A stretch of DNA of 64,000 nt from Lactococcus carnosus. GTDB taxonomy: Bacteria; Bacillota; Bacilli; Lactobacillales; Streptococcaceae. Shown piece after piece: positions 23,366-36,094 of this stretch. Below the pieces are notes generated by a model. It did not search any database. It saw nothing but the letters and a program-made list of their open reading frames with translations, and had not been told where the DNA came from. Position 1 is the first letter of the stretch; the number at the start of each line of letters is the position of its first letter. Where the stretch lies: the NCBI RefSeq assembly GCF_006770265.1, contig NZ_CP017194.1, forward strand, positions 496,001-560,000, written 5' to 3'. The translations under genes and the position numbers were made by a program.

Positions 23366-24787
23366 ATGACATTACTTGAATTTCCACAAAATTTTTGGTG
23401 GGGTGCTGCCACCTCAGGACCACAAACAGAAGGTAGATTTCATAAGACACACGACAATATATTTGATTATGACTTTGATCACTTTCCAGACCATTATTGG
23501 GGAGGGATTGGCCCAGATACAGCTTCCAATTTTTACAATGACTACCAAGCAGATATCGCCTTAATGAAGGCAGCAGGCTTAACCTCTGTCAGAACATCCA
23601 TTCAATGGACACGCTTGATTGATGATTTGGAAACGGGCACTGTTAATGCAGATGCAGCTAGATTTTATAATGCTGTGATCGATGAATTTATCGCAAATGG
23701 TATCAAACCGGTCATTAATCTCCATCATTTTGACATCCCGGTTTCACTAGTCCACAAATATGGTGGCTGGGAGTCCAAACATGTTGTCGACTTATTTGTT
23801 AAGTTTGCGCAAGCAAGTTTTACCTTGTTCTCTGATCGTGTGACCGATTGGTTCACACATAATGAGCCTATGGTAGTGGTTGAAGGGGGCTATCTTTACC
23901 AGTTTCACTATCCAGATATCGTAGATGGTAAGCGGGCTGTTCAAGTTGCCTATAATTTACAACTTGCCTCTTCGAAAGCAATCGCCGCATTTCGTCAGGT
24001 AAATCAAAATCCTGACGGTAAAATCGGTATCATTCTGAACTTGACACCAAACTATCCTGCATCAGCATCACCTGAGGATCAGGCAGCAGCAACATTTGCA
24101 GATTTATGGCAAAATCGCCTATTCTTAGACGCATCTGTTAAAGGTGCATTTGCAGCAGAACTTGTCGATGTGCTAACAAATGATGACGTGCTTTGGGCAT
24201 CAACAGCTGAAGAGTTAGCCATCATTCAGAAAAATACTGTCGACTACCTAGGTGTTAATTTCTATCATCCTAACCGTGCACAAGCACCGAAATACGCACC
24301 GGATTCGCTAGCCATCGATTGGCTACCAGACAAATACTTTGAAGCATTTGACAAACGCGGTGTGCGCATGAATGCGGATCGCGGATGGGAAATTTATCCT
24401 AAAGCACTCTATGATATCGCCAAAAATATCCAAGAAAATTATGGGAATATTGCCTGGTTTGTATCTGAAAATGGCATGGGTGTAGCGCGTGAAGAGCGCT
24501 ATCTAGGTGAAGATGGGATCATTCAAGATGACTATCGCATTCGCTTCATCAAAGAACATCTTTACTATGTTCATAAAGCAATTGCAGAAGGAGCTAACTG
24601 TTTTGGCTATCACCTCTGGACACCGATAGACTGTTTTAGCTGGAGAAATTCATATAAAAATCGCTATGGCTTGATTGCAGTTGATGTACATAGACAAGAC
24701 AAAACACTTAAAAAATCAGCTCACTTCTTCAAAACGCTGTCAGCATCATCTAGCTTCGATATTAGTCATACTGAAATGGCGAAATAA
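23366..24787 (+). CDS. 6-phospho-beta-glucosidase (GH1), PTS-linked
   Basis: A 473-residue glycoside hydrolase family 1 enzyme in the cytoplasm that splits phosphorylated beta-glucosides delivered by the PTS. The acid/base glutamate lies in THNEP (about residue 168), the nucleophile in VSENGMG (about 367-373). The N-terminal FWWGAATSGPQ is typical of the family. It lies 54 bases after the IIC gene. The sequence just before the ATG (GAAAGAGCGCTTATG) resembles half a cre box and is a poor ribosome site, so coupling may help. A terminator follows at 24825. Confidence 0.93.
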   Translation: MTLLEFPQNFWWGAATSGPQTEGRFHKTHDNIFDYDFDHFPDHYWGGIGPDTASNFYNDYQADIALMKAAGLTSVRTSIQWTRLIDDLETGTVNADAARFYNAVIDEFIANGIKPVINLHHFDIPVSLVHKYGGWESKHVVDLFVKFAQASFTLFSDRVTDWFTHNEPMVVVEGGYLYQFHYPDIVDGKRAVQVAYNLQLASSKAIAAFRQVNQNPDGKIGIILNLTPNYPASASPEDQAAATFADLWQNRLFLDASVKGAFAAELVDVLTNDDVLWASTAEELAIIQKNTVDYLGVNFYHPNRAQAPKYAPDSLAIDWLPDKYFEAFDKRGVRMNADRGWEIYPKALYDIAKNIQENYGNIAWFVSENGMGVAREERYLGEDGIIQDDYRIRFIKEHLYYVHKAIAEGANCFGYHLWTPIDCFSWRNSYKNRYGLIAVDVHRQDKTLKKSAHFFKTLSASSSFDISHTEMAK

Positions 24788-24824
24788 GCAGTAGTAGATT
24801 ACTTAACCTTAGCTAATACAAGTC

Positions 24825-24862
24825 AAAAAACGGATAGCGGATTTATTGCTATCCGTTTTTTT
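24825..24862 (+). terminator. terminator of the PTS beta-glucoside operon
   Basis: ACGGATAGC and GCTATCCGT pair with flanking A and T runs. Confidence 0.85.
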
Positions 24863-24953
24863 GAGGTTATCAGGTATCAGATAGCGTGAGCAAGAGCACA
24901 TTTACGCTAGCTAACATCTGCGAGATTAAAAAATAACAAATTTTAGGTTATCC

Positions 24954-25009
24954 TTGACGCGCATATTATGATATTGTATAATAATATCATAAAGTAAGCG
25001 CTTACTTTA
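24954..25009 (+). promoter_or_regulatory. strong promoter with nested palindromic operators for peptide gene
   Basis: TTGACG (24954-24959), a 17-base spacer and TATAAT (24977-24982) is near-ideal. A 10-bp inverted repeat, TTATGATATT/AATATCATAA (24966-24975/24983-24992), encloses the -10. A second, perfect 20-base palindrome centred on AAGCGCTT (24990-25009) starts about at +2; it is cre-like with mismatches only at the outer positions. This is a tightly controlled promoter. Which regulators bind is unknown. Confidence 0.8.
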
Positions 25010-25030
25010 AAAATAAAAGGAGGATTCAAA

Positions 25031-25201
25031 ATGAAACAATTAACAGTTAATGAAACTCAAAAGATTGTAGGTGGGGTATCATGGGAATGTTTGGCGTGCC
25101 CGTTTAAGAGTGCTAATCATGTATTTACAGCTACTGCAAGTCAAAGAGCCTATGAGCATGAATCACGATATGGTCACTATGGTAAAACAAGAATAAGATA
25201 A
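25031..25201 (+). CDS. double-glycine-leader secreted peptide (bacteriocin- or pheromone-like)
   Basis: A 56-residue peptide with AAAGGAGG eight bases upstream. Residues 1-15 (MKQLTVNETQKIVGG) form a short leader ending in Gly-Gly, the cleavage mark for C39 peptidase exporters. The 41-residue core starts VSWEC and has only two cysteines, C20 and C23 (CLAC), with histidines at 30, 43 and 49, and is basic near its end. The CxxC plus spaced histidines suggests metal binding or a disulfide; neither is shown. An ABC pair and a C39-type fragment follow. I do not recognise the core as a named bacteriocin. Confidence 0.8.
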   Translation: MKQLTVNETQKIVGGVSWECLACPFKSANHVFTATASQRAYEHESRYGHYGKTRIR

Positions 25202-25238
25202 TTTTTTGTCAAGACTGCTAAACGCGCGTGTAAACTAA

Positions 25239-25252
25239 TCACTAGTTAGTGA
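25239..25252 (+). other. short perfect palindrome after peptide gene
   Basis: TCACTA-GT-TAGTGA lies between the peptide stop and the attenuator. Role unknown. Confidence 0.3.
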
Positions 25253-25264
25253 TGATTATTAGGA

Positions 25265-25300
25265 AACTGCTATTGCATGACTGTCAATATGCAGTTTTTT
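25265..25300 (+). terminator. attenuating terminator between peptide and ABC genes
   Basis: AACTGC..TATTG pairs with CAATA..GCAGTT with one bulged base, followed by TTTTAG. It would let the peptide be made in excess over the transporter. Confidence 0.7.
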
Positions 25301-25319
25301 AGTTAAGTATGGAGGAAAC

Positions 25320-26189
25320 TTGTTAGTATTAAACAATATTTATAAAAAATATCAGGATAAAGTCATTCTAGAAGATATCTGTTTAACTTTAAACAATGGT
25401 ATCTATGGCTTACTTGGTGCGAATGGAGCTGGCAAAACGACGCTGATGAAAATGATTTGTGGCGTGATCAAACCAAGCTCTGGTTATATCCACTATGATG
25501 GTGAAGCGATGGGAAGTGGTCAAAGTCAACTCATTGATTGTCTGGGCTATTTACCTCAAGATTTTAGCTACTACCCTGAGTTTACCGCCTATGAATTCAT
25601 CACCTATATGGCTACTTTAAAAGGAATGAGCAGAAGTGATTTTGAGAAGCAGGGCCACTCTCTTTTACAGATGGTGGGACTGGACACAGTAAAACATGCT
25701 AAAATAAAGTCCTTCTCTGGTGGGATGAAACAAAGATTAGGCATTGCCCAAGCGCTTTTAGGGGACCCTAAAGTTTTAATTCTGGATGAGCCAACCGTTG
25801 GTCTGGATCCCAAGGAAAGAATTCGCTTTCGTAATCTAATCAGTTCCTTGTCCAAAGATAAGATCATTATTCTATCAACGCATATTATTGGTGATATCGA
25901 TGCAGTGGCAGACGAGATACTTATTCTTAAAAAGGGCATCCTGCTTGAGCAGGCGACACCCCAATTATTATTAGAGAAAATAGACAACCAAGTTTGGGAA
26001 GTTGAAGTGGAGATAGACCTTGCTGATAAACTCAAAGCATCATACATTATTAGCAATCAAAAAGTTGTCAATAATCGACTGATGCTACGGATTGTATCAA
26101 GTGTTTCGCCTATTGAGGGTGCCCATCATGTGCAAGCTAATCTGGAAGACTTGTATCTTTATTATTTTCCAAATATAGGAGAAAGTTAA
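25320..26189 (+). CDS. ABC transporter ATP-binding protein of the peptide locus
   Basis: A 289-residue ATPase of the ABC-2/BcrA type. Walker A GANGAGKTT lies at about 37-45, the signature in FSGGMKQR, Walker B in VLILDEP, and the switch histidine in STHI. The C-terminal about 75 residues are a family-specific tail. The start is TTG 25320 with GGAGG four bases before it; no in-frame ATG lies nearby. It is directly followed by its permease, sharing TAATG. Such pairs commonly give self-protection against, or export of, antimicrobial peptides. Confidence 0.88.
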   Translation: MLVLNNIYKKYQDKVILEDICLTLNNGIYGLLGANGAGKTTLMKMICGVIKPSSGYIHYDGEAMGSGQSQLIDCLGYLPQDFSYYPEFTAYEFITYMATLKGMSRSDFEKQGHSLLQMVGLDTVKHAKIKSFSGGMKQRLGIAQALLGDPKVLILDEPTVGLDPKERIRFRNLISSLSKDKIIILSTHIIGDIDAVADEILILKKGILLEQATPQLLLEKIDNQVWEVEVEIDLADKLKASYIISNQKVVNNRLMLRIVSSVSPIEGAHHVQANLEDLYLYYFPNIGES

Positions 26190-27352
26190 TGTATATGTTA
26201 TATAAATTTGAGCTGAAAAAGATAGTTAAGACAAAATTATTTTTAGGTGTTTGCCTCGCTTTACTGGTAACCACTTTAGGGGCCATGTGGACTGTCTTCT
26301 ACATATCTCCTATGGGGATTGGTCCCAAGGAGATGTCGAAGCGATCGGTTGTCCAGTATAATCAGAAATTTGCTAGACAGTATGAAGGCGACTTAACTGA
26401 TAGTAAAATTAAGGAGGTTCTGAGTGATTATTTAGCTTTTCATAAGTCACGAAAACAAGACGAAAATAAATACCAAGAGGAGATACCAAATAATGTCTTT
26501 TCCTATCGGATAGCTGATGCAGTGCTAAATCCTAAAGATAATCTGCCCAATCAAGTAGATAAAAATCCAAATGTATCGATCGATGATATACCAGTAAAGC
26601 CGATCAGTAGTTTGGGGATCAACAAAGATATAAAACCTATCAAATTAACAAGTTATTACGGATGGTCTGATTTGTACAAGATGACAGAAGTTATATATAT
26701 CCCCATTGTGATGGCGATCATTGTGGCATGTTCGGGCATCTTTTCAAGCGAACGTGCCGCAAATATAGATCAACTCTTGTTAGCGACTAAGCATGGTCGT
26801 AAGCGATTAACGACCTCGAAAATCTGTGCAGTAGGACTTGTTTCGGTTGCTTTATTTCTTGTCACCAGTTTACTGATTTTGGGGTCATTCATTATATTTT
26901 ATGGTTTTGATGGCTGGAATGGCAGTATTCAGGCAAATTTTGAGCTAGCAACATTTACCTTTCCAATTGCACTTAGCCACTTACAAGTTTCTCTTGTCAT
27001 GCTAGGCATTCAACTCTTTAACGTCCTATTTATCAGTAGTCTAGGTATTTTGATCTCCAGTTTTACAAATTCACCTTTTATATCTATGATCATATCATTA
27101 GTTATATTTGTCATACCAAAAGGCTTAGATAAACTCTTTACTGTAGGGACGTTACCTAACAAGGTACAACAGTACTTACCAATTAATAATTTTAGTGTCG
27201 ATACCATCTTACAGAAGATGACTAATAACGAGGAAGTTTTGCGTAATAGTTTCACAGCAAATCTATTAATCATTGGTGTCATAGCATGTTTGGTTATGGT
27301 GGTGAGTCTAGTCGTCACGAGCATACATCAAAAAAAATATTATGCATCATGA
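26189..27352 (+). CDS. ABC-2-type permease of the peptide locus
   Basis: A 387-residue membrane protein. One helix at about 15-35 is followed by a large hydrophilic, likely extracellular loop (about 40-170) and then five helices (about 175-385). This layout, with a big loop between the first and second helix, is seen in ABC-2 permeases for peptide resistance. ATG 26189 overlaps the ATPase stop and follows AGGAG. With the ATPase it forms a complete transporter, inferred to act on the locus peptide. Confidence 0.85.
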   Translation: MYMLYKFELKKIVKTKLFLGVCLALLVTTLGAMWTVFYISPMGIGPKEMSKRSVVQYNQKFARQYEGDLTDSKIKEVLSDYLAFHKSRKQDENKYQEEIPNNVFSYRIADAVLNPKDNLPNQVDKNPNVSIDDIPVKPISSLGINKDIKPIKLTSYYGWSDLYKMTEVIYIPIVMAIIVACSGIFSSERAANIDQLLLATKHGRKRLTTSKICAVGLVSVALFLVTSLLILGSFIIFYGFDGWNGSIQANFELATFTFPIALSHLQVSLVMLGIQLFNVLFISSLGILISSFTNSPFISMIISLVIFVIPKGLDKLFTVGTLPNKVQQYLPINNFSVDTILQKMTNNEEVLRNSFTANLLIIGVIACLVMVVSLVVTSIHQKKYYAS

Positions 27353-27367
27353 GGTTAGGAGGTTACT

Positions 27368-27613
27368 TTGATCATTACAAGAGGTATTTTACAGCATGAT
27401 CAGTCTGACTGTGGTGCTGCCGCGCTAGCTAGTGTCTTTAATATGCATCATCTGTTAATACCTGTTACCCAGTTAAGAGAAACGATGCGAGTTGATAAAT
27501 CAGGAGCTAGTATTTACGCAATCATTAAGACAGCTGAAACGTATGGTATCAGAGGAGAAGGGTTAGTAGGGGATTTAGAGGAGCTAGCAGCTAGTATTGG
27601 CAGTAAGATGTAA
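27368..27613 (+). CDS. short C39-peptidase-like protein, lacking the catalytic His/Asp half
   Basis: An 81-residue protein with a strong AGGAGG site and TTG start. It begins ITRGILQHDQSDCGAAALAS, the Cys segment of C39 bacteriocin-processing peptidases (C15), and continues with the helix and GASIYAIIKTAETYG typical of the family. It stops before the His and Asp of the triad, and a terminator follows about 40 bases later. So it is either a truncated remnant of a processing exporter or a genuine short protein that binds leaders without cutting. No membrane or ATPase part is present. Confidence 0.7.
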   Translation: MIITRGILQHDQSDCGAAALASVFNMHHLLIPVTQLRETMRVDKSGASIYAIIKTAETYGIRGEGLVGDLEELAASIGSKM

Positions 27614-27653
27614 CAAATCAAACTAATGCTTGTTTAATCTTGTATAGGACAAA

Positions 27654-27674
27654 AGGCGCATTGCGTCTTTTTTT
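27654..27674 (+). terminator. terminator of the peptide/ABC locus
   Basis: AGGCGC pairs with GCGTCT (one G-T) around ATT, followed by T7. Confidence 0.75.
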
Positions 27675-28268
27675 GATTCATATGGACGTGGCGAAGTTGA
27701 TGAAAAAGCGATGTAGATTTAGCATATTCCAGTAAATAGTTTAGGTGTGGCATGTTACTTAGTTAATTTGGAACAATTTTTAGCTGCGGATAGTCCTATT
27801 GGTAATAGCGTAAAATAAAGGTTTGAGCGAGTAGTCAATGCTTTCGTACAAAAGATACAGGATGTACCATTCAGAATTTGATGCCTGCCTACCTAGAAGC
27901 AACAGGTCAATTAGTGGTTGATGAAACTCTGAACCTGAACCTGATCGCTTAAAAAGTGGCGTTAAGACTCATTTTTTTATTATCTTCAAAAAAATTCGAA
28001 AGTCCCCAAAAAAGCGAGTTTGGTGCTTACTGGTGATGAAGGTACTAGATTAAAATTGACTTTTGGAAATTACATCTGTAAACTAAAGATATACAGAAAA
28101 TGAATAACGAATGAGTCAAGTAAGAGATGTCGTGTGAAATAACTGAAACAGTAGCGCTAGGGGAAGCAGTCAAGTAGTGGAAACACGCTGTCACTTTCTA
28201 TGTTTCCTCTCCTCTTATCATGTTGTTTTATCAAATTTTTAGTCAGGTTCAAAATGCAAGGAGAGACC
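27675..28268. other. intergenic region with no intact gene
   Basis: About 590 bases without a supported gene. Short open stretches look coding-like but are broken by stops, for example one ending LEQFLAADSPIGNSVK near 27818 and one with MPAYLEATGQLVVDE near 27885. They could be remnants of a decayed gene between the peptide locus and the Mga-like regulator. I cannot name the family. Confidence 0.3.
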
Positions 28269-29723
28269 ATGTATCCAATGATGAAAGAAATAATCACTGA
28301 AAAAGATATTCGGAGGCAGATTTTATTAATTGAAAAGTTATTGAATCATAGCCAACTGACGGCTAAGGAATTGGCCGAATCTATTCATACAACTGAAAGA
28401 ACTGTTTTTTCAGATATACAATTAATCAGAAGTCAATTACCTGATGATTGGATGATTGAGTCTGACAGCTCAGGTTTCAAATTATTTCCAGCAAAAAATA
28501 GTGTGACAACGGAGATATGGGAAATTTTTTTGTCGCAATCAATTGGGATTCAAATTTTAAAAGCCTTATTTCTCAACCCCGAAGTATCTCGTCATCAGCT
28601 TGCACAATTGACCAGTGTTTCTGTTGAAACACTAAAAAGGCATATTAATCAGATTAATAGACGGATTAAAGCCTATCAAGTTAAAATTAAATTAACAAAA
28701 GGGGTTTACAAGCTAACTGGAAAAGAAAGTACGATTCGTATTTTTTTTCATCGGTTACTTTTACCTTATACATACAGTAACTATTTTTTTAAGGATTATG
28801 CAGTTCACGAGATCCACTATTATCAATTTCTGAAAAACATACGCCAATCCGATGTGAAGATTGAGACGGAACATATTTTTGGCATGAACTGGTTTTTTAT
28901 TAATACCATCAGGATTAAGGCAAATTGCCGAATTAATAACTTTTCCTATCAAAAAGAAGATCCACTTTTTTCGCTTTATCACTTAATGCTAGTTGAGCTT
29001 TATCAAAAAGAAGGGATTTACTTAACGGATGATGAAGCATTTTTCAGTTTTTTCTGCTTTTTAGAAAGTTGGAATTATAATAATACGTATGGAAACATTT
29101 TAGATGATACGATTCATACCCAATACCCGACACTTTTAAAAGCAGCTTCTGATTTTGTTGCGCGTTTTGTATCAAGTGGGACACTACCTGAACTCAGTCG
29201 CTCAAAATTAAGTGATAATTTATTTTTGCTATTGTTGAAGTATGTGGAATCCCCAAAGCTTTCCAAACAATTTCAACTTGAATATCATGAGCTAATCAAT
29301 TTAAGAGCAGATCATTATCAATTACTTCAAAAATTTGGTCCAGAGTTGATTCAACAGTTGAATCCCTTAGCAAAAATAGACGATATAGGCTATCTTATCC
29401 ATCTCATATCATTACTTGTGCAACAAGCAATTTTTCAAACCCATCCTATTATGATGACTGCCTACTTTATTTTTCAAGGAGAACCTGCATGGAAAGACTT
29501 CCTTAGACAAGAAATTAGTGATGCTCTTGGTAATCGTGTTAAGGTAATTGGCATTGAACCGTTTGATTTAAAAGATGTCCAATATAATACGCAAGATATT
29601 ATAATCTCAAATTTACTTTTGGAAACTCAGCCTGTACCGATTCATTATATCTCAATGCTTCCAACAAAAAATGAACTCAATACATTGATTGAGTCCACAA
29701 GATCGCAATATTTATTAATCTAA
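28269..29723 (+). CDS. Mga-like helix-turn-helix regulator
   Basis: A 484-residue protein. Two N-terminal helix-turn-helix segments (about 20-75, LTAKELAESIHTTERTVFSD; and about 90-150, VSRHQLAQLTSVSVETLKRH) match the Mga/RofA family. The middle holds PRD-like helices (about 170-380) and the end an EIIB-like domain (about 390-484). Such proteins sense PTS phosphorylation and activate surface or sugar genes. AAGGAGAG precedes ATG 28269; the frame upstream of it has no ribosome site. The target genes are not evident here. Confidence 0.82.
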   Translation: MYPMMKEIITEKDIRRQILLIEKLLNHSQLTAKELAESIHTTERTVFSDIQLIRSQLPDDWMIESDSSGFKLFPAKNSVTTEIWEIFLSQSIGIQILKALFLNPEVSRHQLAQLTSVSVETLKRHINQINRRIKAYQVKIKLTKGVYKLTGKESTIRIFFHRLLLPYTYSNYFFKDYAVHEIHYYQFLKNIRQSDVKIETEHIFGMNWFFINTIRIKANCRINNFSYQKEDPLFSLYHLMLVELYQKEGIYLTDDEAFFSFFCFLESWNYNNTYGNILDDTIHTQYPTLLKAASDFVARFVSSGTLPELSRSKLSDNLFLLLLKYVESPKLSKQFQLEYHELINLRADHYQLLQKFGPELIQQLNPLAKIDDIGYLIHLISLLVQQAIFQTHPIMMTAYFIFQGEPAWKDFLRQEISDALGNRVKVIGIEPFDLKDVQYNTQDIIISNLLLETQPVPIHYISMLPTKNELNTLIESTRSQYLLI

Positions 29724-29798
29724 TAGGGCAATGATACTAAGGTAACTTGTTACGCTTTGTCAACAGTCTTTTATTTTCAAAGTTGCCTCACTATCCTA

Positions 29799-32333
29799 TT
29801 ATGTCTTACTAACAGTTATCTTTTTTGTTATCATTTTCTCAACTTCAACTATGATGAAAATAATTAAAGCATTTAAAAGCATGGCAGAAATTTGTGTCAG
29901 TGTTAATTGTGCCGTACCAATTAGCGTATGTGCTAATGGTGAAAATTGTAGTCCCAATTGCAGTAGCGTTAGGATACCGAGTGAGATAAATAATGCACGA
30001 TTTTGAAACATCGCTTTGTTAATGGACGGGTTAAGTAACTCACGACAGTTGATCATATATACAGCTTGCGCAAAAACGATACTCTGCAGTAGCACTGTTT
30101 GCTGAACCAGGACACCATCATATTGGGTAGATAGGAAATAAGACGGTATCATAATCAATAAGGAAACATAGAAAATTCTGAAGAGACTATATGCCGACAG
30201 GATACCTTCATTTGTAGGTCTCGGTGGTCGACTCATTGTATCGGCACTAGCCTTTTCAAACCCTAAAGCATAAGACAGAGCAATCGTTGTCACCATATTC
30301 ACCCATAAAATTTGTACAGGGCTCAATGGTAAGGGGCGGTTCATCAATAAAGCGAAGATAACGACAAAACCTTGCGCTAATGCGGTCGGAATAAAGAAGT
30401 TAATCGTTTTTTTCAAGTTATCAAAAATACGTCTTCCTTCTTTAACCGCTTTTGAAATCGTTTGGAAGTTATCATCTGCTAAGACCATATCAGCTGCTTG
30501 TTTAGAGACTTCACTCCCTTTAATTCCCATGGCGATACCAATATCAGCTTTCTTCAAGGCAGGTGCATCATTGACACCATCTCCAGTCATACCAACAATT
30601 TCACCATTACTTTGCAAGGCGGTGACAATTCTTAGTTTATGTTCTGGTGTTGTTCTAGCAAAGACATCCACATGTTTAACTGCCTCTCTCAATGCGTCGT
30701 CTGACATCAGATCAATTGCTAAACCTTCTAATACTTCTGCTGTGTGTGTTAATCCAATTTGTTCACCAATTGCTTTTGCAGTTTCTTTATGGTCACCTGT
30801 GATCATTTTAACGCTAATACCTGCTTGTTGACAGGCTTCAACTGCTTGAATGGCACTCTCTTTTGGTGGGTCAATGATGCCTGCAAGTCCTGCAAATGTT
30901 AAATCGGTTAGCATATCGTGCCTTATGTCGGCTTGTGGGTCGACTTCTTTATAGGCAAATCCTAAGACACGTTGTCCTTTTTGAGCCAGCTCAACCGCCT
31001 TTTGTTGCCAGTCAGATAGATCACGTTTATCTAAATTGGCAAGTGACATCAAGACTTCTGGTGCCCCTTTAACATAGATGATATCTTGTTGACCATAAGG
31101 ATGTACGGTTGCCATATATTTATAACTTGAGTTAAAGGGTATCTTTGCTTTAACTTTCTTAAGGGTCAACCCTGCTTTTTCAACGTAGTGAAGGAGTGCG
31201 AGTTCAGTTGGATTACCCTGAAGGTCATCAATCGTTTGCTTGTCATCTAGTTTTAATTCTTGACAGTTATTCATAATGTCAAATAGATGTCCGGAATGCT
31301 TCTCAGCTTCTATTACATCTACTACGGTCATTTCATTTTTAGTCAGGGTACCTGTTTTATCGGAACAAATGACAGTCATGGAACCCAGAGTTTCAACAGA
31401 AGGCATACTTTTGATAATAGCCTGTTCCTCTGCCATTTCCTTGACACCTGCTGATAGGATCATTGTTAATACAGCAGGTAAGCCTTCAGGCACCATTGCG
31501 ACAATTAAGGCAATCATGGCAGAAAATAGTAAATTGAAGTCCATACCATATTTAAAAGTTGAGAAAAAAATCAGGAAAACAATTAATACCATAATCCCTT
31601 TGAATAACTGTTGATTTAAGTCATTCATTTTTTTGACGAGAGGCGTTGTTTGCTGCTGAATTGATTGTAAGGCTTGGTTTATTTTACCGATTTCTGTATC
31701 GCTACCTGTTGCAACCACAATGCCTAAGGCCGAGCCAGACTGAACTAGCGTTCCCGAGAATGCCATGTTAGTCTGGTCACCAATGGCACTTTCTGCTTCG
31801 ATAAGGTGAGCATATTTTTCAACTGGTTCGGATTCGCCTGTTAAAATTGATTCTTCTATAATCAAATCATGTACATCAATTAATCTTAGATCGGCAGGTA
31901 CAACATCGCCAGCATTGAGTGAAACAATATCACCCATGACAACAGTTTCATTAGGAATTGTTGCTTTGACACCATCGGATAGGACGACCGCTTCTTGTCC
32001 CATCATTTGCTTCAAGCCGTCCAGAGAATCTTGGGCCTTTCTTTCTTGCCAATAGCCGACTAATCCGTTGATAATCACCACTAAAAAGATAATTGCACTC
32101 TCAACATAGTCACCTGTGATCATTTTCAAAATAGAAGCAAAAAGTAAGACAATCATGAGTAAGTCTGTAAAATGTTTTAAAAACTTCTGCCAAGGTTTTA
32201 ATGCTTGTTTTTCTTCTATTTTATTAAAGCCATTGGATTCGAGGCGTTGCTGTCTCTCTATGTCCTGAATCCCTTTGTCTGTAGTCTGAAGTTTACTTAG
32301 TATTGCTTCTTTTGTTAACTGATACCATTTCAT
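29799..32333 (-). CDS. P-type Ca2+-transporting ATPase
   Basis: An 844-residue P2-type cation pump. It has the N-terminal cation-ATPase domain, the TGES actuator motif, the ion-site helix AMVPEGLPA, phosphorylated D325 in DKTGTLT, the nucleotide domain, the TGDGVNDAP hinge and a C-terminal group of helices. PEGLP fits Ca2+ or related divalent cation pumps rather than copper types, which carry CPC. AAAGGA lies eight bases before the ATG. It is monocistronic on the minus strand, divergent from tex. Confidence 0.9.
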   Translation of the reverse strand: MKWYQLTKEAILSKLQTTDKGIQDIERQQRLESNGFNKIEEKQALKPWQKFLKHFTDLLMIVLLFASILKMITGDYVESAIIFLVVIINGLVGYWQERKAQDSLDGLKQMMGQEAVVLSDGVKATIPNETVVMGDIVSLNAGDVVPADLRLIDVHDLIIEESILTGESEPVEKYAHLIEAESAIGDQTNMAFSGTLVQSGSALGIVVATGSDTEIGKINQALQSIQQQTTPLVKKMNDLNQQLFKGIMVLIVFLIFFSTFKYGMDFNLLFSAMIALIVAMVPEGLPAVLTMILSAGVKEMAEEQAIIKSMPSVETLGSMTVICSDKTGTLTKNEMTVVDVIEAEKHSGHLFDIMNNCQELKLDDKQTIDDLQGNPTELALLHYVEKAGLTLKKVKAKIPFNSSYKYMATVHPYGQQDIIYVKGAPEVLMSLANLDKRDLSDWQQKAVELAQKGQRVLGFAYKEVDPQADIRHDMLTDLTFAGLAGIIDPPKESAIQAVEACQQAGISVKMITGDHKETAKAIGEQIGLTHTAEVLEGLAIDLMSDDALREAVKHVDVFARTTPEHKLRIVTALQSNGEIVGMTGDGVNDAPALKKADIGIAMGIKGSEVSKQAADMVLADDNFQTISKAVKEGRRIFDNLKKTINFFIPTALAQGFVVIFALLMNRPLPLSPVQILWVNMVTTIALSYALGFEKASADTMSRPPRPTNEGILSAYSLFRIFYVSLLIMIPSYFLSTQYDGVLVQQTVLLQSIVFAQAVYMINCRELLNPSINKAMFQNRALFISLGILTLLQLGLQFSPLAHTLIGTAQLTLTQISAMLLNALIIFIIVEVEKMITKKITVSKT

Positions 32334-32670
32334 TGTTTAAATCCTTTCTTTTTCTCCTGGGGGCCTGCTGTTACTGAAGATTTAAAGCTTAACTATAGTA
32401 TACCGTCATTTTTTATGTTAAAAGGGTCACAAATTTCAGGCTAGACTGAAAAAGCTGATAAGGAAGTTATCTGCCATAGCAGACCGATTTTGTTAGGAAA
32501 AGTATGAAAGATGATGCAATTGAAAAAATGAACAACTTGAGTATTTAACACTAACCAAAAAAAATGGTTAGCATAGTACAGTGAGTTGAAACATCTGTAA
32601 AGCCTTATTTCAAGGCTATCTAGCGTGGTATTCCGTGTTGTAGTGATGATAATTATGGTATAATAAGAGA
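32334..32670. promoter_or_regulatory. divergent intergenic region of Ca2+-ATPase and tex
   Basis: On the minus side a TTAACA-18-TATAGT promoter lies near 32393-32422. On the plus side a CTAACCA/TGGTTAG hairpin lies at 32551-32571. The tex -10 is at the right end. A 14-codon open frame at 32504-32548 has an AGGA site but no other support. Confidence 0.4.
32656..32664 (+). promoter_or_regulatory. extended -10 placing +1 on the tex ATG
   Basis: TGG-TATAAT ends six bases before ATG 32671. No ribosome site is present; a leaderless mRNA is predicted. Confidence 0.6.
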
Positions 32671-34827
32671 ATGGAAAATAATGAACATATCAAGAAAATA
32701 GCTGATCTATTGACGATTTCACCCAAGCAAGTCAATCAAGTTTTAGACTTGACTGCCGAAGGCAATACGATTCCCTTTATTGCACGTTACCGTAAAGAAG
32801 TGACTGGTGAGTTAGATGAAGTACAGATAAAAGCGATTGTTGATGAACATGATCGTGTGATCAAGTTAACTGATCGTAAGACAGCCGTACTTGCAAAGAT
32901 TGAGGAGCTAGGCAAGCTGTCTGATGACCTGAAGCAAACGATTCTTGCTGCTGAAAAGTTGTCAGAGGTTGAAGAGTACTATCTCCCATATAAAACCAAG
33001 CGCCGTACCAAAGCGATGATTGCCAAAGAACGTGGTTTATTTGGTCTGGCCAAAGTAATCATGCAAAATGGTGATGTGGCTGGCCAAGCTGAGACCTTTG
33101 TAAACGATGATGTGCCGACAGCTGCTGATGCCATAGCAGGTGCACTGGATATCTTATCTGAGGCGATTTCTGAGGATGTCAAAATGCGTGCCTGGGTCCT
33201 AACTGAGCTCAAGCAGAATGGCCGTTTACTAACCAGTGAAAAAGATAGTAGTCTGGATGAGAAACAGGTTTTTCAGATGTACTATGACTTTTCAGATAGC
33301 CTATCAGACATCCCCAACTATCGTGTGCTAGCCGTTAACCGAGGTGAAAAACTTGGTATCTTGACGGTAAAATTTGAGCATAATTGGGACAAGATGATTG
33401 CTATGTTTGAGAATCGCTATAACGCCAAACAAAATGCCCATTTAAAAACTGCCATTCATGATGCACTCAAGTCAAAAATCGTGCCAGCCATGGAAAGAAA
33501 TGTGCGTGCAGAACTCAAAGAACGTGCCGAAGATGGGGCGATTGAAACTTTTGGTAAGAATCTACGCAACTTACTCCTTGTTGCGCCTTTAAAAGGTAAG
33601 GTTATTCTAGGATTTGACCCTGCCTTTAGGACAGGTGCTAAAATCGCCATTGTCGATAAGACAGGTAAGATGCTGATGACCACGGTGATTTATCCCGTTA
33701 AACCAGCCTCTGCTAAACAGATTGAGCAGGCTAAGGTTGAGTTGGCAAAACTCGTTATGACTTATGAAGTAGAGATGATTGCCATAGGTAATGGGACGGC
33801 ATCTCGTGAAAGTGAACAGTTCGTGTCTGATGTCATTAAAGCGCATCACTTATCTGCCAAGTACGTGATTGTCTCAGAGAGTGGGGCGTCAGTTTATTCA
33901 GCAAGTCCGATAGCACGTGAAGAGTTCCCAGACTTGACTGTCGAGAAACGCTCGGCTATTTCGATCGCTCGTCGCTTGCAGGATCCTTTAGCCGAATTAG
34001 TTAAGATAGAACCTAAAGCGATTGGTGTTGGTCAGTACCAGCATGATGTGTCTGAGAAGAAATTAACGGATAATCTGGATTTTGTCGTTGAAACAGTGGT
34101 AAACCAAGTCGGCGTTAATGTCAACACGGCAAGTGCCAGTTTACTTGCTCATGTAGCGGGACTTAATGCAACGATTGCTAAAAATATTGTCACCTACCGT
34201 GAAGCGAATGGGATGATCAACTCACGTAAGGAAATTAATAAAGTCCCACGTCTGGGTGCCAAAGCATTTGAACAGGCAGCTGGTTTCTTACGTATTCCGA
34301 CGAGTGATAATGTACTTGATCATACGGGTGTCCATCCAGAATCTTATCAGGTAGTTGCACAACTGTTTACTGAGCTTGGTATCGACGAATTAGCTGATGA
34401 AGCGCGTGCCAAACTCAAACAGGCTGATTTAAAGCAGCTAGCTGAAAAGTTAAGTGTTGGTCAGTCGACATTAAAAGATATCATATCTGATTTGTTAAAA
34501 CCAGGTCGGGACTTACGTGATGAATTTGATGCACCGATTTTGAGATCTGACGTCTTATCTGTTAAAGATTTACGTGTGGGTCAAAAGTTAGAAGGCGTTG
34601 TCAGAAATGTCGTTGATTTTGGTGCCTTTGTTGATATTGGGATCAAAGAAGATGGTTTAGTTCACGTCTCTCGTATGTCTAAAAAATTCATCAAAGATCC
34701 ATCTAGTGTCGTAGCTGTTGGTCAGATCGTAACCGTTTGGGTCTATCAGATAGATCAAAGCCGAGGTGGAAAAGTTGGTCTATCGATGATTGAGTTACCG
34801 CCACAAGCTAAAGCTGATGATAAGTAA
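32671..34827 (+). CDS. tex: Tex-family RNA-binding transcription accessory protein
   Basis: A 718-residue protein with the full Tex layout: N-terminal helical domain containing TIPFIARYRKE, a YqgF-like RNase H fold (about 310-440, starting GFDPAFRTG), helix-hairpin-helix repeats (about 480-560) and a C-terminal S1 RNA-binding domain (about 635-710, DFGAFVDIG). Tex binds nucleic acids and affects transcription fidelity and toxin expression in several bacteria. It appears leaderless. The sprT gene starts inside its last codons. Confidence 0.95.
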   Translation: MENNEHIKKIADLLTISPKQVNQVLDLTAEGNTIPFIARYRKEVTGELDEVQIKAIVDEHDRVIKLTDRKTAVLAKIEELGKLSDDLKQTILAAEKLSEVEEYYLPYKTKRRTKAMIAKERGLFGLAKVIMQNGDVAGQAETFVNDDVPTAADAIAGALDILSEAISEDVKMRAWVLTELKQNGRLLTSEKDSSLDEKQVFQMYYDFSDSLSDIPNYRVLAVNRGEKLGILTVKFEHNWDKMIAMFENRYNAKQNAHLKTAIHDALKSKIVPAMERNVRAELKERAEDGAIETFGKNLRNLLLVAPLKGKVILGFDPAFRTGAKIAIVDKTGKMLMTTVIYPVKPASAKQIEQAKVELAKLVMTYEVEMIAIGNGTASRESEQFVSDVIKAHHLSAKYVIVSESGASVYSASPIAREEFPDLTVEKRSAISIARRLQDPLAELVKIEPKAIGVGQYQHDVSEKKLTDNLDFVVETVVNQVGVNVNTASASLLAHVAGLNATIAKNIVTYREANGMINSRKEINKVPRLGAKAFEQAAGFLRIPTSDNVLDHTGVHPESYQVVAQLFTELGIDELADEARAKLKQADLKQLAEKLSVGQSTLKDIISDLLKPGRDLRDEFDAPILRSDVLSVKDLRVGQKLEGVVRNVVDFGAFVDIGIKEDGLVHVSRMSKKFIKDPSSVVAVGQIVTVWVYQIDQSRGGKVGLSMIELPPQAKADDK

Positions 34828-35272
34828 AAATGAGACCTTATTAGCCTTTGTTAGATGGGTTTCGCTGGTTGATTTTGCTAAACCTTTTGAGCATGAGGCT
34901 AGATTTAATGGTCGCTTGCGGTCTACAGGTGGCCGTTTCTTTCCCAAAGACCTCCATCTAGATTTTAATGAAAAGATGTATGATGCCTTTTCTGAGGATG
35001 TCTTTCGGCAGATTGTGCAGCATGAGCTGGTACATTACCATCTATATAGAGCAGGTAAGGGTTATCGTCATAGGGATGCAGATTTTAAGGTCTTACTTGC
35101 ACAAGTAGGTGGCTTAAGATTTGCCCCCGCCTTACCTGATACGTCCTTCCTCGTTTATCAGTGTATGAGCTGTAAGCAGATGTATCAGAGACGTAGAAAA
35201 ATTGATCTTAAAAAATATCGGTGCGGTAAATGTGGCAAACCGTTACAATTTGTTAAGGGAAAGGAGGCTTAA
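34817..35272 (+). CDS. SprT-like zinc metalloprotease-fold protein
   Basis: A 151-residue protein of the bacterial SprT family (YdcK type). The zinc motif HELVH lies at 69-73, followed by YH. The C-terminus has a zinc ribbon, CMSC and CGKC. The conserved N-terminal region FAKPFEHEARFN fits a start at ATG 34817, inside the tex end; the longer TTG frame would overlap tex further. Activity is unknown in bacteria; eukaryotic relatives cut DNA-bound proteins. Confidence 0.85.
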   Translation: MISKNETLLAFVRWVSLVDFAKPFEHEARFNGRLRSTGGRFFPKDLHLDFNEKMYDAFSEDVFRQIVQHELVHYHLYRAGKGYRHRDADFKVLLAQVGGLRFAPALPDTSFLVYQCMSCKQMYQRRRKIDLKKYRCGKCGKPLQFVKGKEA

Positions 35273-35275
35273 TCT

Positions 35276-36094
35276 TTGAAGAAATCAGATGAGAAAAAAT
35301 TGATTAAGGCAACAGAAAAAGTTTTTAAAGGCTTAACGAAAACCCAGCAACTCATTGCTGTTCTCATCGTAGCGGTTGGGCTTGGTACCTATTACTTTGT
35401 ATCACAATCGACGCAGGAACAGCCAGCACGACAAGAGAAACGCATCACGGCAACTGATGTTGCTGAATTTCTTGAGTTGAAGTGGGATGACTCGGATAAG
35501 TATTATACGGAGATCAATGGTGGGAAGTCAACATTTTCAGATGCTGATTTAAAGCAAAATACCACATCAGATTACTGGATAGCATTTTCAAAATTGGATC
35601 AGCTAAATAGAGCAAATCAGGCTAATGCCCGTCTCAGTTATACCCAGTATATGAAGATTAAAAAAATGAAGCGACCCAGGATTCCAAATAATCCCGTTGG
35701 CTGGTATTATAAGGGGCGCTCAAATAATCAGGATATCTTGTTTAATAACACACCCCTGACCTTATATAATCGGAGCCATCTCATCGCTTGGATGTTTTCT
35801 GGTGATGTCGGTAGTCCTAAAAATTTAGTAACTGGTACTCGGGCCATGAATTCGCCTGGCATGCAGGACTTCGAAACAAAGATTTCAGATGTCTTGTATC
35901 GGGATAAGTTGCATGTCCGCTACCAAGTTACGCCAATCTATCAAGATAATGAGTTATTACCACGGGGTATGCACATGATGGCAAAGTCTGTTGAAGATGA
36001 TGGTAAAGCATGTGATATCAATGTTTACGTGTTTAATATTCAGCCCAATTATCAGATCGACTACACGACAGGTGTCGGTCAAAGGCTGAAGTAA
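35276..36094 (+). CDS. membrane-anchored DNA/RNA non-specific endonuclease
   Basis: A 272-residue beta-beta-alpha-metal nuclease. One helix (about 21-42) anchors it, with the enzyme outside. The active-site motif is NRSHLIAW with catalytic H168, the NRSH variant of the DRGH motif. Streptococcal EndA, with the same layout, degrades DNA at the surface and serves DNA entry in competence; that role is only inferred here. TTG 35276 has AAGGAGG eight bases upstream. It starts four bases after the SprT stop. Confidence 0.87.
   Translation: MKKSDEKKLIKATEKVFKGLTKTQQLIAVLIVAVGLGTYYFVSQSTQEQPARQEKRITATDVAEFLELKWDDSDKYYTEINGGKSTFSDADLKQNTTSDYWIAFSKLDQLNRANQANARLSYTQYMKIKKMKRPRIPNNPVGWYYKGRSNNQDILFNNTPLTLYNRSHLIAWMFSGDVGSPKNLVTGTRAMNSPGMQDFETKISDVLYRDKLHVRYQVTPIYQDNELLPRGMHMMAKSVEDDGKACDINVYVFNIQPNYQIDYTTGVGQRLK

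Follow-up and report, generated by a model that had tools for sequence, protein, structure and literature searches.

Gene organization of the peptide operon

The window analyzed here, a stretch of 64,000 nucleotides of Lactococcus carnosus (contig NZ_CP017194.1, positions 496,001 to 560,000), is part of a closed 2.16-Mb genome; Lactococcus piscium DSM 6634 belongs to the same genus, which is now named Pseudolactococcus. An operon at positions 24954 to 27671 is arranged in the order promoter, 56-residue Gly-Gly-leader prepeptide, terminator-like hairpin, ABC ATPase, ABC-2 permease, 81-residue C39 open reading frame (ORF), and terminator. Every part listed in the initial annotation (GG peptide, hairpin with U-tract, ABC ATPase, ABC-2 permease, and C39 piece) was found, and the features are as follows.

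24954..24982, plus strand: sigma-70-type promoter, TTGACG-17-TATAAT, matching 11 of 12 consensus positions and ranking first among 16 promoter-like sites of the region
24990..25009, no strand: perfect 20-bp palindrome TAAAGTAAGCGCTTACTTTA, a possible operator, read directly just 3' of the -10 element and kept in two sister genomes
25031..25201, plus strand: gene for the 56-residue prepeptide with leader MKQLTVNETQKIVGG, AAGGAGG ribosome site, orthologues in the sister genomes
25076..25198, plus strand: predicted mature core of 41 residues, VSWECLACPFKSANHVFTATASQRAYEHESRYGHYGKTRIR, based on the family alignment, AlphaFold2, and computed properties
25263..25300, plus strand: intrinsic-terminator-like hairpin with U-tract between the peptide and ABC genes, -12.5 kcal/mol, conserved in the sister genomes
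25320..26189, plus strand: ABC transporter ATPase, 289 residues, TTG start, GGAGG ribosome site, Pfam ABC_tran 5.6e-31
26189..27352, plus strand: ABC-2 permease, 387 residues, Pfam ABC2_membrane_2 5.7e-14, overlapping the ATPase stop by one base, orthologues in relatives
27368..27613, plus strand: remnant of a C39 peptidase-containing exporter, codons 1 to 80 (81-residue ORF), Pfam C39 9.5e-13, profile positions 5 to 72 of 133
27597..27608, no strand: single copy of the 12-bp repeat TTGGCAGTAAGA, the deletion junction; two copies lie 1,957 bp apart in sister genome G003
27651..27671, plus strand: operon terminator, also found 3' of the full exporter in G003

The description of the promoter as near ideal is borne out by its rank in the region, and alignment shows TTGACA-17-TATAAT, a 12-of-12 match, in both sister genomes (G003 and L. 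piscium DSM 6634). The core of the palindrome resembles a CcpA cre site, but this match contains two mismatches and such matches are no commoner than chance within the window, so that CcpA control is only a suggestion. The hairpin behind the peptide gene, also seen in the initial annotation, was missed by a simple terminator scan, probably owing to its bulges. Streptococcus saliviloxodontae and Streptococcus thoraltensis have a different hairpin with a T-run at the same junction, so that what persists at this position is a hairpin and not a particular sequence. No Rfam family or tRNA was detected by scanning the window.

The surroundings of the operon differ among the three genomes. A 4.98-kb stretch directly after the operon terminator (27676 to 32652) is present in the window and absent from both sisters; it encodes an Mga-type regulator (28200 to 29723) and a P-type cation ATPase (29799 to 32333), and no transposase was seen in it. 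L. piscium DSM 6634 carries a cassette between a beta-glucosidase gene and the peptide operon (L083:3857-7345), absent from the window, which encodes an 872-residue protein with a staphopain-like C47 peptidase domain.

The C39 fragment and the missing exporter

The C39-like protein had been taken as a separate component of the gene set. It is instead the N-terminal remnant of a 709-residue exporter, with 98.75% identity to residues 1 to 80 of the exporter in G003. The region of the catalytic Cys is kept, whereas the remainder of the peptidase domain and the membrane and ATPase domains are lost, and no other exporter remnants occur downstream in 27,301 to 29,900. When 12 genomes of the genus were searched for C39 (PF03412), G003 and L. 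piscium DSM 6634 both proved to have a full exporter of 709 residues at this position. In G003, TTGGCAGTAAGA is located both within the exporter gene, ending at codon 80-81 (L023:7674), and after the exporter (L023:9631); 1,957 bp were evidently lost between these 12-bp direct repeats, the window junction having the sequence that such a deletion would give. The earlier remark that a full C39 exporter is lacking therefore holds for the window genome but not as a natural design, because both sisters have the complete 709-residue protein. The odd-looking gene set is accounted for by an ordinary repeat-mediated deletion.

The adjacency of the genes in the window could also suggest that the ABC pair exports the peptide while the 80-codon C39 piece acts as a separate processing protease. 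This reading is largely refuted and very improbable: the piece is the scar left by deletion from an exporter that had its own membrane and ATPase domains, it breaks off at residue 80 without the latter half of the peptidase domain, and in other genomes the ABC pair is found alongside full exporters.

Three other C39-type loci are present in the genome, L140, L141, and L142 (at approximately 204, 289, and 1214 kb): the first is Blp-like, with a response regulator and a 570-residue C39 exporter ORF, the second is lanthipeptide-like, and the third has a GG peptide with a 739-residue exporter. The 739-residue exporter is apparently intact, but the GG peptide near it has a leader unlike that of the window peptide. 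Cross-export of the window peptide by another exporter of the genome is possible; pneumococcal GG exporters, however, discriminate by leader (PMC7018657). Disrupted exporters are common at the pneumococcal rtg locus (PMC7018657), and Lactococcus garvieae Lg-Granada, which parallels the window strain in having bacteriocin genes without an exporter, keeps these genes intact, lacks the dedicated exporter, and shows no activity (PMC9101539). The peptide ORF and promoter of the window strain are intact; we consider the strain more likely to be an immune, silent non-producer.

Gene order in relatives and the role of the ABC pair

Absence of the gene order from related genomes had been named as a possible refutation of a peptide system, which did not materialize. 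The operon is shared by G003 and L. piscium DSM 6634, in which the full exporter is its last gene. The operon is also complete in S. saliviloxodontae DSM 27513, where the peptide, ATPase, and permease are 65%, 54%, and 46% identical to those of the window and are accompanied by a 722-residue C39 exporter. S. thoraltensis DSM 12221 has a peptide gene with an in-frame stop and the ABC pair, and no C39 exporter.

The ATPase is 98 to 99% identical within Pseudolactococcus and 47 to 55% identical in the Streptococcus operons. Among the relatives of the permease in Streptococcaceae, those of ten Streptococcus genomes come immediately after a core-family peptide or what decay has left of one, and eight further Streptococcus genomes have the ABC pair with no recognizable peptide upstream; these eight pairs share 93 to 99% DNA identity with the pair of G095 over the approximately 80 ATPase bases compared. 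An ABC-2 pair is linked to the peptide in most GG-type members of the family. In two genomes (G225 and G440), the peptide and a C39 exporter are followed by an ABC-2 pair of another type, whose permease is unrelated, and more distant ABC pairs have unrelated neighbors.

Whether the ABC pair serves immunity or export had been left undecided in the initial annotation. The comparison favors immunity over export, because complete operons also carry a C39 exporter and because the pair occurs without a peptide, the latter being what is expected of immunity genes; immunity would be the simplest role. The LanFE(G)-type ABC transporters that protect lantibiotic producers likewise have an ABC-2 permease partner and share the proposed self-protection, and the window ATPase resembles them with a score of 177 bits against TIGR03740 (galliderm_ABC), below the cut-off of 310. 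The window operon differs from them in having no lanthipeptide enzymes and a single permease.

The prepeptide and its core

The prepeptide ORF is not a chance reading frame, since it is preceded by a ribosome site and is 91% identical in the two sister species, with an identical leader. As anticipated, a Gly-Gly leader precedes a short core; the leader is a near-match to the TIGR01847 bacteriocin signal (13.9 bits, below the curated cut-off of 15.7). The core has a mass of 4.76 kDa, a pI of 9.2, and a GRAVY of -0.71 (hydrophilic), so that in length and charge it is the small cationic peptide expected of class II bacteriocins, and its C..C...H...H...H pattern is zinc-finger-like. The operon contains no modification enzyme genes, and no lanthionine synthetase gene was found within 24000 to 36000 or in the sister operons.

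The core was also said to resemble no familiar bacteriocin class, which agrees with our searches: the window peptide has no above-cut-off match in Pfam, NCBIfam, or PHROGs, and no curated family in these collections covers the core. The YGNGV motif of class IIa (pediocin-like) bacteriocins is absent, and no curated model of the Garvicin Q/bovicin 255, lactococcin 972, or ComC/BlpC families matches the window core; among relatives of the peptide, ComC or class IIc models match only the leaders. The prepeptide has no match in plasmid and phage collections. In the open-licence literature searched, the core sequence strings did not turn up, and no matching peptide was found in the work read on zinc-finger-like peptides, Sil, angicin, garvicin, or lactococcin 972; an earlier description elsewhere is possible. 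Angicin and garvicins AG1/AG2 were considered as the identity of the window peptide and rejected, as their printed cores are dissimilar.

Compared with the sisters, 9 of the 41 core codons are changed (five amino acids) and the leader is unchanged, whereas 20 of 289 codons differ in the ATPase gene and 33 of 387 in the permease gene, approximately one-third of the rate in the core. All five substitutions (A to E, P to R, N to D, T to R, and K to E) alter charge. This pattern would fit the competition-driven evolution of a toxin, although the numbers are small and the fit is only suggestive.

Predicted fold and the metal question

AlphaFold2, run with a 28-row alignment, predicts for the core a strand (residues 3 to 5), a helix (18 to 32), and a second strand (38 to 40), with a mean pLDDT of 96 and a pTM of 0.70; the same arrangement is predicted for a Blp-type member (pLDDT 97). 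A fold search of the PDB gave no significant match. By sequence, the first profile found only short zinc-finger matches in the PDB around the CxxC region, and a larger profile found none. In a viral structure library, the nearest shapes are small phage proteins (TM 0.74 to 0.79, E 0.4 to 4), including one named CxxC motif protein and one DUF7848 protein. DUF7848 and zinc-ribbon models also make up the main weak Pfam matches of the family cores: 5 of 28 cores match DUF7848 (PF25232) weakly (best 1.1e-4), the gathering cut-off is not reached, and the window core is not among them. The family cores thus resemble DUF7848 and small phage CxxC proteins in weak profile and shape matches, but these proteins are not secreted GG peptides; because the scores are below or near significance, only a shared fold is proposed.

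A zinc-finger-like, possibly metal-bound mini-domain is therefore a reasonable, if tentative, reading. The Cys/His pattern is kept in the CxxC members of the alignment, but Cys8 and His28 are missing from some members of the family, which weakens the case for a universal metal site. The conserved Cys/His pattern and the zinc-finger-like predicted fold would also suit a peptide acting on something other than a competitor, for example a secreted metal-binding peptide, as would the Sec-type relatives, which stand alone without linked transporter genes. We consider this improbable, given that the GG-type relatives are placed in multi-bacteriocin loci with ABC pairs, that the ABC pair occurs without the peptide, and that the operon has no metal-transport or metal-regulator gene.

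The wider peptide family

Sequence comparison places the window peptide (core motif W-x-C-x2-C-x6-H-x12-H-x5-H) in an unnamed family outside Pfam, NCBIfam, and PHROGs, one branch of which lacks CxxC. The family profile was built from nine cores, and the later alignment has 28 rows. At E ≤ 0.05, the nine-core profile matched 35 of the 335 genomes from the bacterial family, the weakest of these matches being due to chance. Across the order, 13 of 395 genomes had matches at E ≤ 0.001, and when the class was sampled evenly, no member outside the family passed 1e-4. A Flavobacteriales match (L086) and the low matches L079 to L082 were discarded as chance, having no leader, the wrong frame, or zinc-ribbon proteins. 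Residues W3, C5, S12, and H15 (numbered on the mature peptide) do not vary in the alignment, and A25 and H28 hardly do.

The members occur in three forms. The first, to which the window peptide belongs, joins a GG leader to a core with CxxC. The second also has a GG leader, but its core lacks CxxC and has a Cys near the C terminus (C.VY); this form is found in Blp/Sil-like loci. The third comprises Sec-signal precursors of approximately 90 to 145 residues with the CxxC core at the C-terminal end, in other Lactobacillales genera. Streptococcaceae members have GG leaders and often lie inside Blp/Sil-type bacteriocin loci. The loci of distant members also encode further GG peptides, several in number, together with response regulators and exporters of the Blp/Sil type, and a homologous ABC pair directly follows the member. 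No transporter is located near the Sec-type members; in G033, two of them are adjacent (L031:5825-6685), again without a linked transporter.

Several loci depart from these arrangements. In G004 and G001 (L025:85-9842 and L026), a diverged GG core peptide (MNKVNVTEAQTVNGG...) has an Rgg regulator on one side and, on the other, an unusual lipoprotein that carries a solute-binding domain. A 714-residue C39 exporter, a pair of sugar-type ABC permeases, and a membrane-fusion-like protein come next, so that the locus combines GG-peptide genes with importer-like ones. In G017 (L013:253-1605), a core homologue without a recognized leader is upstream of another protein, which we take to be lactococcin 972-like, and an ABC ATPase. 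In G014 (L012:1501-1659), a GG peptide with the core FHWHCMFCKAGG... is flanked by genes for an Rgg-like regulator and for an ABC pair of FtsE/FtsX-like type; it is possibly a very distant member and was left out of the alignment.

These Rgg-type neighbors in G001 and G004 (G014 is a weaker case) and the fact that GG leaders are found on pheromones too raise the alternative of a signalling peptide rather than a toxin, which the ABC pair would sense or clear. We regard it as unlikely. No receptor kinase or Rgg gene adjoins the operons of the window, the sisters, or S. saliviloxodontae, a folded core of 41 residues is long for a pheromone, and, where response regulators are near, the peptide is one among several GG cargo peptides. 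Because contexts vary, from the Rgg regulator, solute-binding lipoprotein, and exporter of G001 and G004 to the Sec-type members without a transporter, function may differ across the family.

A proposed bacteriocin system

The operon, from which the exporter has been deleted in the window strain, probably encodes a class II-like bacteriocin, with the ABC pair as the likely source of immunity. The bacteriocin reading is supported because S. saliviloxodontae and two Pseudolactococcus genomes each encode the peptide, the ABC pair, and a C39 exporter of 709 to 722 residues in a single operon, because the leader is constant while the core changes faster than the ABC genes, and because distant members sit in multi-GG-peptide loci with an ABC pair behind; the initial proposal of a GG-leader peptide system of this type is thereby strengthened. 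Most known class II bacteriocins have no fold in water and act on membranes. The core is predicted to be folded and hydrophilic, unlike most of class II, which weakens this reading.

In the proposed mechanism, cleavage behind Gly-Gly would free the core from the 56-residue prepeptide, and the C39 exporter encoded in the operon, still intact in the sisters, would secrete it. The released cationic core of 41 residues is modeled as a folded mini-domain of strand, helix, and strand, which a metal ion probably holds together through C5 and C8 with H15, H28, and/or H34; in Blp-type members a Cys-Cys link would stabilize the core instead. The core would inhibit related Gram-positive bacteria, and the ABC ATPase and permease would shield the producer, as LanFE-like pairs do, with the hairpin setting a high peptide-to-immunity ratio. 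With its exporter cut to 80 codons, the window strain would most likely be an immune non-producer unless another exporter serves the peptide.

The complete operon resembles the Blp, Sil, and Rtg loci of streptococci, whose GG-leader peptides leave through C39 transporters (PCATs), in its GG leader and dedicated C39 exporter, and the setting of the family's distant members is similar to these multi-peptide loci. It differs in its cargo, a predicted folded, zinc-finger-like core in place of GxxxG-type Blp peptides, and in pairing the peptide with an ABC-2 ATPase and permease in place of a small membrane immunity protein. The class IId garvicins AG1/AG2 are also small GG-leader peptides, from a lactococcal relative, but their cores are unrelated and each has one immunity gene instead of an ABC pair. 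The family may even represent a new structural class of bacteriocin, a secreted, metal-stabilized, zinc-finger-like mini-domain exported through GG/C39 or Sec routes, with stabilizing residues swapped between branches (CxxC plus His or a Cys near the C terminus) and a dedicated ABC-2 immunity pair; this we put forward tentatively, as a possibility short of an even chance.

The main interest lies in the peptide family rather than in the missing exporter: it is unnamed in the collections searched, it is common to GG and Sec precursors, and its predicted fold is atypical for class II bacteriocins. If the proposed reading is right, the bacteriocins known from streptococci and lactic acid bacteria would gain an uncharacterized, folded, possibly metal-dependent peptide family, and the genome pair in which the exporter is present or deleted would be suited to separating producers from merely immune strains.
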